Below are positions 2,577 through 52,811 of a stretch of DNA of 64,000 nucleotides, in pieces (within the stretch, counting starts at the first letter, position 1; each line of letters opens with the position of its first letter). Below the pieces are notes generated by a model. That model was given only the letters and a program-made list of their open reading frames with translations, had not been told where the DNA came from and made no database searches. Location of the stretch: contig JAGTJW010000001.1 in the NCBI GenBank assembly GCA_023657425.1, forward strand, positions 992,001-1,056,000, read 5' to 3'. Position numbers and translations under genes: made by a program. The DNA comes from Ideonella sp. WA131b (GTDB taxonomy: Bacteria > Pseudomonadota > Gammaproteobacteria > Burkholderiales > Burkholderiaceae_C).

Positions 2577-2963
2577 AGAGTAGAAACATCGGAACGCGAT
2601 GCGGCGATCGCCCCAGTATTCGGCGGCATCGCGGAACACTTCGAGCAGCTGCTCGCGGGCCTCGCGGTCGAAGCGCGGGTTGTCGGGGAGCTGCTCCAGC
2701 ACGACGACGAAGCCCGGCTGCTGGCCGCTCTTGTGCACGAGGTCGGTCATGCAGTCATACAGCGCATCGAGGTTTTTGCCGAAGTGCGCCGGGAACGTGA
2801 ACGCCGCGGCGATGCCGTCGAGCACGTCCTGTTTGGTCTGCGCGCCCGAAAGGTTGGCGTACAGGAAATGATGGCCGGCGGTCTGGGCCGCGGTCATCAG
2901 GTCGTCAACCCGGTAGGCGCGGATGGCCTGCACGAGATTGGGTCGGATGGTCTGCAACTCCAT
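2568..2963 (-). CDS. Barstar-family ribonuclease inhibitor
   Basis: 131 residues, cytoplasmic, no signal peptide. The start is set by an AGGAGG ribosome site (complement of 2971-2978) before the ATG at 2961-2963; an open frame continues 19 codons further but without such a site. Barstar-like features are the early segment DLMTAAQTAGHHFLYANL, the central FPAHFGKNLDALYDCMTDL (matching the barstar helix that plugs barnase, with the acidic Asp and Tyr) and a C-terminal segment with FRCFYSF. It lies 78 bp downstream of a secreted RNase on the same strand, so it is the presumed immunity protein protecting the cytoplasm from that RNase. Confidence 0.9.
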   Translation of the reverse strand: MELQTIRPNLVQAIRAYRVDDLMTAAQTAGHHFLYANLSGAQTKQDVLDGIAAAFTFPAHFGKNLDALYDCMTDLVHKSGQQPGFVVVLEQLPDNPRFDREAREQLLEVFRDAAEYWGDRRIAFRCFYSFQ

Positions 2964-3041
2964 GGTCGCGATCCTCCTGGTGGGCATGGAAAGGTAAGCG
3001 TGATCGGTGGCGGCGTTCATGGCGCAGGCTTTGTGCGGGGA

Positions 3042-3524
3042 TCAGGGTTGAATGCGCTTGAAGCTGGCGTAGTGGTCGGCGGTGTAGTAGCAGACCTCGG
3101 GTTGGTTCGGGGGCAGCCCGCCGCAGACGATGCGCCGGGCGCCGCGGTGCGACAAGCCGGGCGTGCGCACCGTGTACTCGCGATACTGGCCGCGTGGCCG
3201 CTGCGGCAGCAGCCGTTCGCGGTTGAAGAACACGGTGCCATCCTTCTGGTACGGGAACGGGCCGCCGGCCAGGATCAGCCCGTGAGTCTGCCGGGCCTCA
3301 CGCGGCAGCGCAGCCAGCGCCACGGCGTCGGCGATCGCAACCGGGTGTTCGGGCGTCCGGGCTGCCGTCGGCCCGGCGCCGGCCATGCCCAGCAGACCCA
3401 CCAGCAGCGCGGCAGCGGCCGCCCGGCACCCCCGCGCTGTCAGTGCGCACCACCGGCGCCCTGCTGGCGCAGGTGCCGCAGCCTGAGATCCGGTCCAGAA
3501 CACGGGGTAACCCTGAAAAAACAA
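3042..3524 (-). CDS. Secreted guanyl-specific ribonuclease (RNase Sa / barnase type)
   Basis: 160 residues. A hydrophobic segment (about 35-50, AAAAALLVGLLGMAGAG) looks like a signal peptide behind an unusually long N-terminus, so the true start may be further in. The catalytic domain (about 70-160) follows the RNase N1/T1/Sa family closely. YREYTVRTPG supplies the general base Glu116, RGARRIVCGG supplies Arg127 and Arg131, and YYTADHYASFKRI supplies the general acid His151; spacing matches RNase Sa Glu54, Arg65 and Arg69. The expected reaction is cleavage of single-stranded RNA after guanosine. The barstar gene follows directly, giving a toxin-then-immunity order. A nutritional RNase, a competition toxin or a self-targeting module are all possible. 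Confidence 0.9.
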   Translation of the reverse strand: MFFQGYPVFWTGSQAAAPAPAGRRWCALTARGCRAAAAALLVGLLGMAGAGPTAARTPEHPVAIADAVALAALPREARQTHGLILAGGPFPYQKDGTVFFNRERLLPQRPRGQYREYTVRTPGLSHRGARRIVCGGLPPNQPEVCYYTADHYASFKRIQP

Positions 3525-3811
3525 ACGAGGATGCTAGCGTCTGCCCCTCGAAAACTCAAGCTGCAGCCCTCGATTGGGGCGCGCGAGCAGGGTTATCAGT
3601 GGGCGCTCACATGGCTGTGAGCACTCGGGTTCAGACGAAGTTCCATGGCCTCGCCGGGCTTTCCGAGCCGGATTGACGTCCGGCTTCCGCCTGAGCGCGT
3701 GAAATCGCACTCAGGCCCTCGGCTGGCGCTCGGCGCCTTCCGGCGCCTCACGTCCTGCCTCGCCTTGCAGGCCGCGCCCTCGCAGAGCTCGGGCTCGGAA
3801 GCAGGCGTCAA

Positions 3812-6163
<2,352 letters not shown>

Positions 6164-48821: not shown

Positions 48822-50315
48822 ATGCACACCCCCGCACCCACCCTGTCCTGCAGCGACGAGTCCGGCCCCGCGCGGCCGATCACGCTGGTCGTGTACGCGC
48901 CCTTTGCCGACGACGCCACGCTCAGCACCTACCCCGACAGCACCACCACCGAAGTGAGCGAGCACCCGCTGTACGCAGCGTTGCAGGCCGTGGCAGACCA
49001 GGGGGTGCAGGTGTGCGCCCTGATCGACCGCGCCGCCGACAACACCAGTCTGGTGTGGGCCGACGCAGGCGGCACGCTGCAGATCGAGCAACCGCGCTGG
49101 AAGCACGACATGGGCTCGCCGCGGACGCTGGCCAACCTGCTGCAGCAGGCCAACCGCCGGTTCCGCGGCAGCGAGATCGTGCTCTGCCTGGAAGGCCACG
49201 GCGCGGGTTTCCTGCCGGAGATCGATGCCTCGCGAATCACCCCCGGCGCCTCGGGGCAGACCACGACATCCGGCGGTGGCAGCCCGCGCCGCTACAGCTG
49301 GGTGGTCGACGGCGAAGGCTCGCAGACGCCCGAGGCCGAGGACGGCCTGCCCTACCTGCCGATGACCGAGTCGACACTGCCCGGCCACCTGTTGCCCGGC
49401 GGGCACTACCCCATCGCCACCTGGGGCCTGGGCTGGGCGCTGGAACAGGGCATGTCCGACCGCCCCTCGGGCGACCGCCGCGTGGCAGTGCTGCACTTCA
49501 ACAACTGCTTCAACTTCTGCGTCGAGGTGCTGCACACCGTGGCACCGCATACGCACTACGCAGTGGGCTATGCCAACTACAACTTCTTCACCGCCGGCCG
49601 CAGCTACCCAGGGGTGTTTGCCGAGGTCGCCAAACGCAACGTGGTCACCGCGGAGCAGTTGGCCGTGAGCCTGGCGCAGGCCAACGCACAGGAACTGGCC
49701 AAGCTGCCGGTGCCGCACCCCACGCTGGGTGGTGCGATCAAGCTCTCCCGCATGGCGGCGGTGGCCGTCGCGCTGGACAGGCTGTCGCTGGCGCTGATCG
49801 ACAGCCTGCCGGCGCAGATCGGCCGCATCACCTCGGCGGTGGTCGCGGCGCAGCGGTACGACACCCACAAGCCGTTCAGCCTCGTGGAGCCCGACAGCCT
49901 GACCGACCTTCGCAGCCTGGCCGCCAGGTTGCAGGCGGCCCAGGTCAGCAATGCCGTCACGACCGCCGCTGCGGACCTGCGGGGTGCGCTCTCGCAGGTC
50001 AAGGTGTACGGCGCCTCGGGCAACCCCTATATGGCGCCCCACATCAATTGGGACTTCAGCAGCCCTGACCTGGCGATGAACATCTTCCTGCCCGACCCCG
50101 GCCGCAAGGGCGTTTTCGATTGGCGCGCACCGTACTACCTGAGCAAGCGCGCTGGCGATCCCGAGGCACAGACCGAAGTGATCCCGCTGTTGCTCGACAC
50201 CCACTGGGTCGACTTCATCCGCAAGTACCACGCGGCCACCGCGATGAAGCACTTGCTGGTGCCGCGCATCCCGCAGCTCCCGGTGGCCGTCTACAGCAGG
50301 AAATTCGCGGCTTGA
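48822..50315 (+). CDS. Caspase-fold peptidase, clostripain (C11) family-like
   Basis: 497 residues from the ATG at 48822 with GGAGG upstream. ITLVVYAPFADDATLSTY is the first strand of a clan CD fold. The His-Cys dyad is visible as EIVLCLEGHGAGFLPE (His126) and VAVLHFNNCFNFCVEVL (Cys229). Clostripain-family enzymes cleave after Arg or Lys and are self-activated. No signal peptide is seen, so it may act in the cytoplasm. The C-terminal half (about 300-497) matches nothing I know. A TPR/winged-helix regulator is divergent, and a V8-like protease gene faces it 840 bases away. Confidence 0.78.
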   Translation: MHTPAPTLSCSDESGPARPITLVVYAPFADDATLSTYPDSTTTEVSEHPLYAALQAVADQGVQVCALIDRAADNTSLVWADAGGTLQIEQPRWKHDMGSPRTLANLLQQANRRFRGSEIVLCLEGHGAGFLPEIDASRITPGASGQTTTSGGGSPRRYSWVVDGEGSQTPEAEDGLPYLPMTESTLPGHLLPGGHYPIATWGLGWALEQGMSDRPSGDRRVAVLHFNNCFNFCVEVLHTVAPHTHYAVGYANYNFFTAGRSYPGVFAEVAKRNVVTAEQLAVSLAQANAQELAKLPVPHPTLGGAIKLSRMAAVAVALDRLSLALIDSLPAQIGRITSAVVAAQRYDTHKPFSLVEPDSLTDLRSLAARLQAAQVSNAVTTAAADLRGALSQVKVYGASGNPYMAPHINWDFSSPDLAMNIFLPDPGRKGVFDWRAPYYLSKRAGDPEAQTEVIPLLLDTHWVDFIRKYHAATAMKHLLVPRIPQLPVAVYSRKFAA

Positions 50316-51072
50316 GCCGCTGCCAGGCGCGTGGGCCGCTGCCCACGCTCCCAGAGCAGGCCGGTGAGCGCGTCGGGGCCGCCCGGTGCATCGAGTTCGA
50401 TCACGAACTGTGAGCGCAGACCCGCGCGGACGGCGACCACCGACTCCCCGGTGGCGCCGTCTTCGGCGTGTGCGCGCATGATCCACAGGCCTTCGCTAGG
50501 AGCGTGGGCGGCAGAAATCCAGCCCCGCGTTGGGCCGATTTCGGGGCCCAGGCCAGGCGCCGCGCGCAGCCCGGGCTGTACGCCCGGGCAAGCGTGGCAA
50601 CGCCGCAAGGGCCCCGAAATCGGCCCAACCCGAAGGGCCGGGGCGGCCAAAGCCGCTGGCGTGTGTTGCGCCGCTGGCGCGGGCGTCAAGCCCGCGCTGC
50701 GCGACGCGCCTACGCCAGTGGCTTTGGCCGCCCCGGCGCGGGGCTGGATTTCTGCCGCCCACGCTCCTAGGCCCTCGAGCTCGAAGCGGCTGGGCCGGCC
50801 GCTCTGGCCGCAAGCCACGCCCGGCGGCGGTGCGGTGCGGGCCCGCGCGAAGCAACATCCAGCAGCGTGCCGTCTGCACCGTCTTGAAGATCCTTGGGCT
50901 CGTCTCCGGGCCAGGGCCAAATGGCGGCGTCCGGCATGGGCTCGGCGCAGGGCGTGTGCTCGTCGCGGTTGACGGTGGGCACCTCGAGCACCACCGGTGT
51001 GGCGGTCCGCGCCAGCAGCTGCACCCGCAGGGGCGCAGCACCGGCCGCCGGGCGGGCGTGTGGGCCTGTCAC
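50291..51072 (-). pseudogene. Unknown ORF interrupted by a palindromic element and one frame change
   Basis: Minus-strand coding-like sequence surrounds the palindromic element at 50496-50770. Upstream (51072 down to about 50860) it reads APLRVQLLARTATPVVLEV and TVNRDEHTPCAEPMPDAAIW, with GTG at 51072 as possible start; it must change frame to reach RPSRFELEG next to the element. After the element it resumes as EGLWIMRAHAEDGATGES, QFVIELDAPGGPDALTGLLW and stops at 50291, 25 bases inside the C11 gene. Without the 282-bp insert the text would read FELEGLWIMRA. I do not recognise the protein and confidence is low. Confidence 0.35.
50496..50770. mobile_element. 275-bp nested palindromic element (MITE-like)
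   Basis: Outer arms 50496-50529 and 50737-50770 are a perfect 34-bp inverted repeat beginning CTAGGAGCGTGGGCGGCA. Inside are two further hairpins side by side: 50530-50548 with 50610-50628 (19 bp perfect, TTGGGCCGATTTCGGGGCC) and 50640-50662 with 50712-50734 (23 bp, one mismatch). Each has its own GC-rich inner stem. Folded, this is a three-way junction with almost every base paired. Near-identical 8-mers (AGGCCTTC 50487-50494, AGGCCCTC 50769-50776) flank it like a target duplication, 282 bases apart. It encodes no protein of its own. Confidence 0.9.
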
Positions 51073-51124: not shown

Positions 51125-51160
51125 CTAGGAGCGTGGGCGGCATGCCGCCCACGCTCCTAG
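51125..51160. repeat. Perfect 36-bp palindrome made of two fused element ends
   Basis: CTAGGAGCGTGGGCGGCA (51125-51142) followed directly by its exact reverse complement (51143-51160). The 18-mer is the outermost end of the 275-bp element at 50496, so this looks like a solo or collapsed copy. The TAG stop of the V8-like protease gene (minus strand, 51157-51159) is part of it, and it could terminate transcription from that side. Confidence 0.9.
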
Positions 51161-52479
51161 AGCGCGGCCCAGCGGGTGAGCACTTCGTGCACCGGCGCCG
51201 TGACGCGTGTGGCAGAGTTTCCGCTCTGCGCGCCACAGTTGTGGATGCCGACGACGCAGCGCTTGCCGTTGCTGCGCTTGATGTAGACCGGCGAACCACT
51301 CTGCGCGGCCATGGTGTCGATGTCGTAGATCAGCGTGCGGTCGGTCACCGTCTCGATCACCCGTGCCATTCCCCAGAGCTGGGCGAACGGCTTGTCACCC
51401 GGATAGCCGGCCAGCACCGCGGGTTGCGCCTTCAGCCGCGCCGCCGTGGGGGCGGCGAAGCCGAAGCTGCCCCGGTTGCCGGTGAGCGCGCCTGGGGGCA
51501 GCACGATGCAGCCGATGGCGGCCTCGGGCCGGCCTTGCTCCGTCCAGCCCGCCACGGAACGCAGGTTGCTCGACCGCGCCGTGCCGCACAGCCGCGTGCT
51601 GCCGTTCATGGCCGGGATCACCTCCACCGAGCGCGCCCAGCCGCCCTGGTTGCGCAGGAACACGCAGTGGCCGGCGGTGGCCAGCACCCGCGGCGCGATG
51701 AAGAAGCCCGTGCCCCTGTACACCACCCCGCTCGGGAAGGTGATGCGCAGCGCGGCGATCGATCGCCACGGCTCGGCCGTGGTGTTGCTGATGTGGACAC
51801 GGTCGTCGTTGCCGATCAGCACCTCCATCGCCGCCGCCACCTCGGCGGCGAACTGCTCCTCGGCTTCGGGGAGGTCGCTCTCCTGGCCCGACTCGCGGTC
51901 CCTGACCGTCTGCAGCAACTGCATGATCTGCTGCAGCACGGCGTTCACGTTGCGCGGCGGCCAGGCCGGCGTCGCTGACCCCGGGTGCGACGGCGCACGG
52001 TTGATCGCCTGTTGCACGACCGGGCCCACCTTTCTGAAGATGGACTGCAGCAGCGGCACGCCGACCGAAATGATCTTGGGCAGCGCAGCGGCCAGGAACG
52101 GCAGGAACTCGGCGTTGGCCTCGCTCTCGCCCAAGGCCTGGCCGACCTCCGGCACTTCGGCGTTGGCTTCGGCGTCGGACTCCTCTCCGCCACTCTCGGT
52201 CTGGCCGTTGTGGCCGACCTCGGCAAACAGCGAGGCGCTTCCGCCCTCGGTCTCGCCACCGGACTCGCCCGTGTTGATTTGGGCCGCCGGCTCGCCTTCG
52301 CTGCCGTCCCGGAAGGGGTTGCCGCCGCAGGTGCTGTTGCCGATGTCGTGGCCCATGAACACCGCGGCGCGCACGGTGCTGCGGGCGCTCAGGTCGCTGT
52401 CGCCGACCGGGCCGCGGGGCAGCTCGCGCGGCGCAACGGGGCGCTGGGCCGCGACAGTGCCGGCCGAAGAACTCGTCAT
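51157..52479 (-). CDS. Trypsin-like serine protease, glutamyl endopeptidase (V8) type, with long N-terminal region
   Basis: 440 residues from the ATG at 52477-52479, with GGAGG upstream. Residues 1-240 are unrecognised: Ser/Gly/Glu-rich, then a hydrophobic stretch (FLPFLAAALPKIISVGVPLL) and an acidic linker. Residues about 245-440 are the protease: VLATAGHCVFL (His271), AAQSGSPVYIK (Ser394) and CVVGIHNCG. The expected Asp before the IVLP strand is not obvious (EAAIGCIVLPPG), so the triad may be incomplete or use the neighbouring Glu. No classic signal peptide. The TAG stop is inside a palindrome. It points toward the C11 peptidase gene. Confidence 0.8.
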   Translation of the reverse strand: MTSSSAGTVAAQRPVAPRELPRGPVGDSDLSARSTVRAAVFMGHDIGNSTCGGNPFRDGSEGEPAAQINTGESGGETEGGSASLFAEVGHNGQTESGGEESDAEANAEVPEVGQALGESEANAEFLPFLAAALPKIISVGVPLLQSIFRKVGPVVQQAINRAPSHPGSATPAWPPRNVNAVLQQIMQLLQTVRDRESGQESDLPEAEEQFAAEVAAAMEVLIGNDDRVHISNTTAEPWRSIAALRITFPSGVVYRGTGFFIAPRVLATAGHCVFLRNQGGWARSVEVIPAMNGSTRLCGTARSSNLRSVAGWTEQGRPEAAIGCIVLPPGALTGNRGSFGFAAPTAARLKAQPAVLAGYPGDKPFAQLWGMARVIETVTDRTLIYDIDTMAAQSGSPVYIKRSNGKRCVVGIHNCGAQSGNSATRVTAPVHEVLTRWAAL

Positions 52480-52811
52480 CAGATCGCTGTCCTCCAAGAT
52501 GGACTCCGTGGGTTGCTCGTTCGTCTCGCACCTGGGGATCCAGGCACGGACGTGATTGCAACGAGAGGCCCCTCGCAGCGCACCGCACGAACGTCGCACC
52601 GGCTGGGGTGGGGGCAGACGATCCCGCGACGCTACCCGTCCTCAACTCATCCGACGTCGGCAAGCTGCCCGGTAAGGCGGGTCTGCCCAGCGCCGGCGAT
52701 CCCGGCGCCCCATTGCGCTGCCGCCCGAGCAAGCCGCGGGTTGGCCGTGCTCGATTTCAGGCCGATGACGGATGCCAGGTGTCGGGTCTGGCAGGTCATC
52801 CGGTCGGAGGG
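52480..52811. other. Gap upstream of the V8-like protease gene
   Basis: 332 bases between the protease start and the 3' end of the GlxA-type regulator, both on the minus strand. It includes the ribosome site GGAGG about 11 bases before the protease ATG and presumably its promoter. No gene or repeat is visible. Confidence 0.45.

Follow-up and report, generated by a model that had tools for sequence, protein, structure and literature searches.

Bacterial MITEs of the IS5 family are short, non-coding and multicopy, carry terminal inverted repeats, and are flanked by a short target duplication. MITEs are usually viewed as decayed insertion sequences. Rickettsia palindromic elements are long palindromes with many copies, read in frame inside protein genes, and the inverted terminal repeats of adeno-associated virus combine an outer stem with two side hairpins. 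Transposases of the Y1 type act on single-stranded DNA, and no target duplication is expected from their mechanism. REPINs and the GTAG/CGTC-tagged REPs are, in the available part of PMC3733652, inverted dimers of hairpins with units of 20-40 bp, mostly extragenic, accompanied by decayed singlets and marked by a tag tetranucleotide. According to the available part of PMC8266576, REP recognition can use a stem bulge together with the GTAG motif.

Here we describe a palindromic element from Ideonella sp. WA131b. The window, the whole stretch of DNA that was analysed, is 64,000 nucleotides long and comes from a genome of 3.87 Mb in 3 contigs (G000, the source genome).

Structure and surroundings of the window copy

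The features of the window copy are collected in Table 1. Its outer arms (50496-50537 and 50729-50770) are 42 nt long and 93% complementary, the outer 34 nt being perfect. They enclose two hairpins, each with arms that are 96% complementary (50526-50549 with 50609-50632, and 50637-50662 with 50712-50737), so that the element reads arm, hairpin, CCCGAAGGG, inverted hairpin, arm. The minus strand of the copy is predicted to fold into a three-way junction at -265.1 kcal/mol, compared with -161.7 (sd 5.86) for shuffles (z -17.65); none of 200 shuffles folded as well. The palindrome at 50496-50770 is real and far beyond chance, and the pairing map and the fold confirm the original prediction of palindromic arms around two hairpins in a three-way junction. 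Among 26 elements cut out by a regular expression, the one that departs from the common junction type reads CCCGAAGTG at that place.

Table 1. Features of the window copy and its neighbours (window positions).
Feature	Position	Strand	Remark
Whole element, CTAG to CTAG	50496..50770	.	275 bp, T-shaped near-palindrome
Left CTAG, border tetranucleotide, proposed target copy	50496..50499	.	CTAG at both ends in 21/21 full copies
Right CTAG	50767..50770	.	CTAG border of full copies
Left outer arm including CTAG	50496..50529	+	CTAG is followed by GAGCGTGGGCGGC; putative terminal inverted repeat
Right outer arm, inverted copy of left arm	50737..50770	-	
Hairpin unit, first copy	50528..50629	-	model R1, 97.4 bits
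Hairpin unit, second copy	50637..50738	+	model R1, 92.1 bits
Junction CCCGAAGGG separating the two hairpins	50629..50637	.	junction type near the middle of 25/26 elements
GTTGC, hairpin 2	50665..50669	+	invariant among 42 aligned hairpins
GCGCCT, hairpin 2	50706..50711	+	5/6 columns invariant; fourth is C or T
GTTGC, hairpin 1	50597..50601	-	minus-strand reading
GCGCCT, hairpin 1	50555..50560	-	minus-strand reading
Clostripain-family (Peptidase_C11) gene	48822-50315	+	element lies downstream of gene
Convergent ORF without Pfam match	51157-52599	-	element also lies downstream of ORF
Arms-only form, 36 bp, CTAGGAGCGTGGGCGGC-AT-GCCGCCCACGCTCCTAG	51125..51160	.	its TAG is the stop of ORF 51157-52599 (-)
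Decayed arms-only palindrome	50324..50353	.	3 and 2 mismatches vs arm 16-mer

The original prediction regarded the element as an in-frame insertion into a coding sequence. Each strand of the element has one stop-free frame, and the minus-strand ORF does stay open across the window copy. That this ORF is a gene interrupted in frame is not borne out: it has no Pfam match, a simple caller based on codon usage predicted no gene across the element, and a composite protein query found no match in the other 199 of 200 sampled family genomes. A position of the window copy within a demonstrable gene is not supported.

The near-identical flanking 8-mers that had been pointed out, AGGCCTTC and AGGCCCTC, are indeed present, but they do not represent an 8-bp target duplication. 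With at most one mismatch, the best 8-mer match between flanks is found in 1 of the 21 full copies, a rate like that between left and right flanks taken from different copies (~6%), so the 8-mers of the window copy are a chance match. The right one also takes two bases from the element's own CTAG. The sequence that is repeated in the flanks is CTAG.

Copies in the source genome and their CTAG borders

A search of the source genome with the element recovered 21 full copies of 275 bp with 97-100% identity. They differ from the consensus by 1-6 bases, with variants shared among copies; this near-identity points to recent spread. The loci fetched from this genome include 14 additional both-ended forms. 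Some retain one hairpin whole or nearly so (175 bp in three copies, 174 bp, 185 bp, and 167 bp in two), and others are arm pairs of 36-91 bp, including one (71 bp, L033) with an unrelated middle. The arm 16-mer, allowing one mismatch, occurs 61+55 times in this genome compared with 0+1 for the reversed control, indicating many decayed single ends. Among the 32 truncated and solo copies examined, many solo copies consist of CTAG and the first ~13 arm bases only, several of them directly at a stop codon; few have lengths of 20 to 33, and the search pattern favours a length of ~13 bases.

To locate the copies relative to genes, we used the same simple gene caller on 34 both-ended copies, a count that omits the 36-bp form. 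For two of them there is overlap with a called ORF; the others abut called genes or are placed between them. In 11 of the 34, the stop codon of the abutting called gene is the TAG of the border CTAG. A called ORF reads through one arms-only copy of 77 bp (L049, 976-1052), which has CTGG in place of the left CTAG.

CTAG is found at both ends of every full copy and of 31 of the 35 both-ended copies. In the window as a whole it is scarce (11 observed, about 55-58 expected from Markov models), and 4 of the 11 are element ends. At seven loci a single CTAG is common to the element and a neighbouring arm, two of these arms being only 9 bases long, as expected if one element entered the CTAG at the other's edge. 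The borders of the palindrome act as landing sites for other insertion sequences as well: two elements that we take to be IS701-like (DDE_5; L053, 1517-2994) and IS1634-like (L043, 1032-2997), both on contig C1 of the source genome, lie exactly in arm-bordering CTAGs.

One full copy breaks the gene of an HTH_11-WYL-WCX regulator (L003, 1195-2494; contig C2 of the source genome, ~708.5-709.8 kb). The ORF before the element contains HTH_11 and ends at a stop within the element, and the ORF after it contains WYL and WCX. The CTA on the left (1501) is read as a codon in the first half, and the one on the right (1772) in the second. These codon phases correspond to a gene with one CTAG that received an insertion of 271 bases (275 minus one CTAG), including the second CTAG. 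The interrupted gene therefore strengthens the case for CTAG duplication; the copies carry CTAG on both sides, with phase evidence from this one locus.

We also searched the joined flanks of 16 copies in 41 genomes. Among the loci fetched, gapped alignments cross the junction for 5 of the 16, which identifies element-free sites. A CTAG lies at the same place in one element-free relative (L119 compared with L037), and the element-free relatives are too distant for a base-by-base view of the duplication.

The element is thus non-coding and mobile, on the evidence of its many copies, the interrupted gene, and the element-free sites in relatives. The earlier proposal of a mobile palindrome is upheld, since the copy count and the search for empty sites dispose of a single-copy sequence that relatives never lack. 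Its companion idea, that the palindrome is tolerated within coding sequence, is not: few copies overlap a called ORF, and the one in a real gene breaks it.

A conserved hairpin core across the family

The two hairpins of the window copy belong to one hairpin family. We aligned 42 of the 52 hairpins from 26 elements (alignment A1), leaving out 10 as near-duplicates or wrongly oriented. They align almost gap-free, with GTTGC and GCGCCT as conserved as given in Table 1. Changes occur on both sides in 28 of 32 consensus pairs. Of the cells, 92.6% are paired; shuffles give 63.7% and sliding no more than 44.9%, and there are 375 double-change cells compared with 113 in shuffles (0 of 500 as high). 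One of five covariation measures lies only modestly above shuffles (28 pairs, with 24.4 for shuffles, 5 of 500 of which reach the observed value), and the test is favoured in that the model structure was taken from the same alignment. Arm-to-arm repair of the palindrome could contribute to covariation; for this reason recognition is better indicated by the conserved bases of the core.

A model of the hairpin, R1, has matches at E up to 0.001 in 191 of 299 family genomes and 106 of 141 genera. These counts come from at most 13 scored candidates per genome under stricter filters, and some of the matches are weak, including genomes with a single uninspected one (E near 1e-4 to 1e-3). The best listed matches score 80-101 bits; a control of 100 kb of unrelated GC-rich alphaproteobacterial plasmid DNA did not exceed 13 bits. 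Minus/plus pairs of hairpins ~108 bp apart recur among the listed matches, for example in G149, G013, G259, G090 and G204. Within the genus, two genomes (G195, G269) have no match to R1 and four (G315, G311, G316, G307) have no match to the arm. BLASTN with the element gives matches, many of them weak, in 102 of the 299 genomes; some are full-length at 68-80% and others cover the interior only, with different arms. An exact pattern for the hairpin tip is present in 20 stretches from titled metagenome-assembled genomes, the titles naming Rubrivivax, Methylibium, Rhizobacter, Piscinibacter or a Burkholderiales bacterium.

The elements follow one plan: arm, hairpin, a junction of the CCCNNNGGG type, inverted hairpin, arm. 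Most are 265-276 bp long as cut, despite widely differing arms, a few being cut short or wide by the chosen boundaries; one has 329 bp between its arms (L135). Across genera the core of the family is maintained; its ends vary from lineage to lineage.

Queries of plasmids and phages with the element gave only two partial matches, on plasmids of Mitsuaria and Cupriavidus, and one core pattern searched in viral contigs was not found there. The 34-mers of the arm have short solo-arm matches on plasmids at E 0.07 or worse; five of these were inspected and left out of the analysis. On the Delftia plasmid pLME1 (L154, 3982-4023) and similar plasmids, a tandem pair of arm-like CTAGGAGC...GGCAG motifs is placed between an aromatic-dioxygenase cluster and IS66 genes. 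In one draft genome (G094; contigs C32, C97, C159, C208, C217) arms lie ~110 bases from contig starts, suggesting that long palindromes break draft assemblies and that copies are probably undercounted.

Arms and candidate transposases

Twelve arms, picked and registered by eye, have a common start close to GRGCSTGTT. The arms of at least three loci fall outside it (L016, L209, L226) and three fit in part (L153, L018, L214).

One candidate is an insertion sequence in genome G030. Its termini share 16 identical bases, GGGCCTGTTAACACTA, next to CTA(G). Two overlapping ORFs in it match NCBIfam transpos_IS5_3 with 100.7 and 135.1 bits (cut-off 110). It lies at a contig end, where the right border stops after CTA and the left end is doubled beside N. 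The arms of two elements from the same genome match its right end at 17/19 and 16/19 positions; none of the 63,981 19-mers of the window comes as close. These are two of the four elements with both arms resolved, from eight fetched in this genome, and the arms of the other elements L209 and L214 are unlike this insertion sequence. The position at a contig end and the non-fitting arms weaken the argument from the end match.

A second, looser correspondence involves plasmid pRK1-5 of Cupriavidus basilensis, which carries a one-hairpin element (hairpin score 29.2 bits) with the end type GGACCCTCTGCA. The same end type is present on an insertion sequence of genome G072 that has a DDE_Tnp_1 transposase and CTAG on both sides. 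The ends match at 13/19 positions, and 5 of the 63,981 window 19-mers are as close.

In the source genome itself, four copies of an IS5_3 element have the ends GAGGGTGTGAACGAAATG and TCA borders. They match the arm of the source genome at 10/19 positions, a level reached by 441 of the 63,981 window 19-mers, and are closer to the arms of elements in another genome, G107 (14/19). No insertion sequence with the source genome's arm was recognised there, and the transposase behind the burst of copies was not found among the insertion sequences of this genome that were compared. Where arms lie about 1-2 kb apart among the matches listed, a solo arm is paired with the distal end of a full element, and no transposase domain is present in eight ORFs located between such arms. 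DDE_Tnp_1 has no match in three genomes that carry hairpins (G007, G149, G005); a match to NF033580 is absent in 6 of 11 carriers, and only the source genome is over the cut-off. The carriers without an IS5-type match may hold old copies from insertion sequences since lost. In the genome of L138, Rubrivivax sp. ACE_PRO48, we observed an apparent internally deleted IS5-family remnant (L232, about 1468-1682) with the end GGGCCTGTCAACACCC and CTAA/CTAG borders.

Judged from these sequence matches, there is support for the class of mover in one lineage and a suggestion of it in others. We consider it likely that the element travels as a MITE-like passenger which IS5-family transposases move in trans, and that its ends can change while the folded core is conserved. 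The arms would be the terminal inverted repeats used by a DDE transposase of the IS5 family acting in trans, with insertion at CTAG and duplication of that site; other subfamilies would use TNA-like sites. The core consists of two ~101-nt hairpins in inverted orientation on either side of a small junction hairpin, so that one strand can fold into a T. Selection for the folded form would keep this core across genera, and the ends would apparently be taken over, by end exchange, from whichever IS5-type element is at hand.

Alternative explanations

It is possible, and we propose it tentatively, that the folded hairpin pair is itself the conserved entity. The element would then be a genetic parasite of insertion sequences, present throughout a bacterial family, that persists by taking on available IS5-type ends, its T-shaped single strand being recognised through GTTGC and GCGCCT by a host or transposition protein. 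The constancy of these core bases is consistent with such recognition. If this is true, the element is defined by its structure rather than by its ends or by a gene.

It is unlikely that the mover is a different DDE element with CTAG as its target (IS701-, IS1634- or IS630-like) and that the likeness to IS5 ends is convergence. The IS701-like and IS1634-like elements lodged in arm-bordering CTAGs of the source genome would fit such a mover. However, their terminal repeats, TCTTACTGTG and GCTGAAGTTCCCC, are unlike the element arms listed, and both look like later insertions into CTAG. We have rejected them as movers.

We find it improbable that the hairpin pair is kept for a host function, such as a transcript end, an mRNA-stability site or a nucleoid-protein site, with mobility secondary. 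The covariation far above shuffles, the invariant GTTGC, and the frequent position right after stop codons (11/34) could be read in this way. Against this, Rfam gave 0 matches for loci searched at the gathering score (L001) or at E up to 0.1 (nine others), relatives are without the element at 5 of the 16 loci tested, two genomes of the same genus are without a model match, and one copy breaks a gene. Template-switching repair of palindromes can keep arms matched, so that pairing may be preserved by this route as well.

The original prediction also proposed a search for a RAYT gene. The only Y1_Tnp gene found in the source genome is split by a copy of the IS1634-like insertion sequence (L063, about 2757-4838, contig C1), which has CTAA at its border; the start of the gene is adjoined by unrelated direct repeats, GGGAGACCTGACCCC. 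Y1_Tnp was searched in the source genome and in 22 genomes, and the loci were read. The locus of the source genome and 21 further Y1_Tnp loci from these 22 genomes contain no perfect stem of 14 bp or longer and have only scattered weak matches to pieces of the element. Three genomes with 12, at least 13 and at least 13 scored hairpins (G107, G193, G090) have no Y1_Tnp match, nor does one with 4 (G278). The inverted hairpin pair, the outer tetranucleotides and the many decayed single copies recall a REPIN moved by a Y1 (RAYT/IS200-type) transposase that acts on single-stranded DNA, recognises hairpins and cuts at the terminal tetranucleotide, but with a CTAG tag instead of GTAG, a duplicated CTAG in the interrupted regulator gene that would be unexpected under this mechanism, and no supporting link to a RAYT gene, we reject RAYT as the mover and regard this explanation as very improbable.

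Comparison with known systems

The arm strings were found in no open-access paper, and no description of the element came up in the open-access titles and abstract openings searched, nor a match in Rfam. The hairpin model of this structured, non-coding mobile element matches roughly two thirds of the genomes sampled from one large bacterial family (191 of 299).

Rickettsia palindromic elements, to which it had been likened, are also long palindromes with many copies. The likeness goes no further, as our element is not demonstrably read in frame and the copy in a real gene breaks that gene. With the inverted terminal repeats of adeno-associated virus it shares the T shape only, that is, an outer stem and two side hairpins.

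REPINs and the GTAG/CGTC-tagged REPs, as far as the available part of PMC3733652 describes them, are similar in being inverted hairpin dimers that are mostly extragenic, have decayed singlets and bear a tag tetranucleotide. They differ in size (275 bp for the element as against their short units) and in the tag, and no association with a RAYT was seen for the element.

The closest resemblance is to bacterial MITEs of the IS5 family. The element is short non-coding DNA (275 bp) with terminal inverted repeats (34-bp perfect arms), has many near-identical dispersed copies and a short target duplication, and in one carrier genome (G030) the arms of two of the four resolved elements match an IS5-family insertion sequence. 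It differs in its core, which is not a recognisably deleted insertion sequence but an inverted hairpin pair that occurs together with a wide variety of ends. The element is best called a MITE whose conserved core is unusual. The combination of such a core with changeable ends reverses the customary view of MITEs, and the question of what protein reads the core can now be asked.
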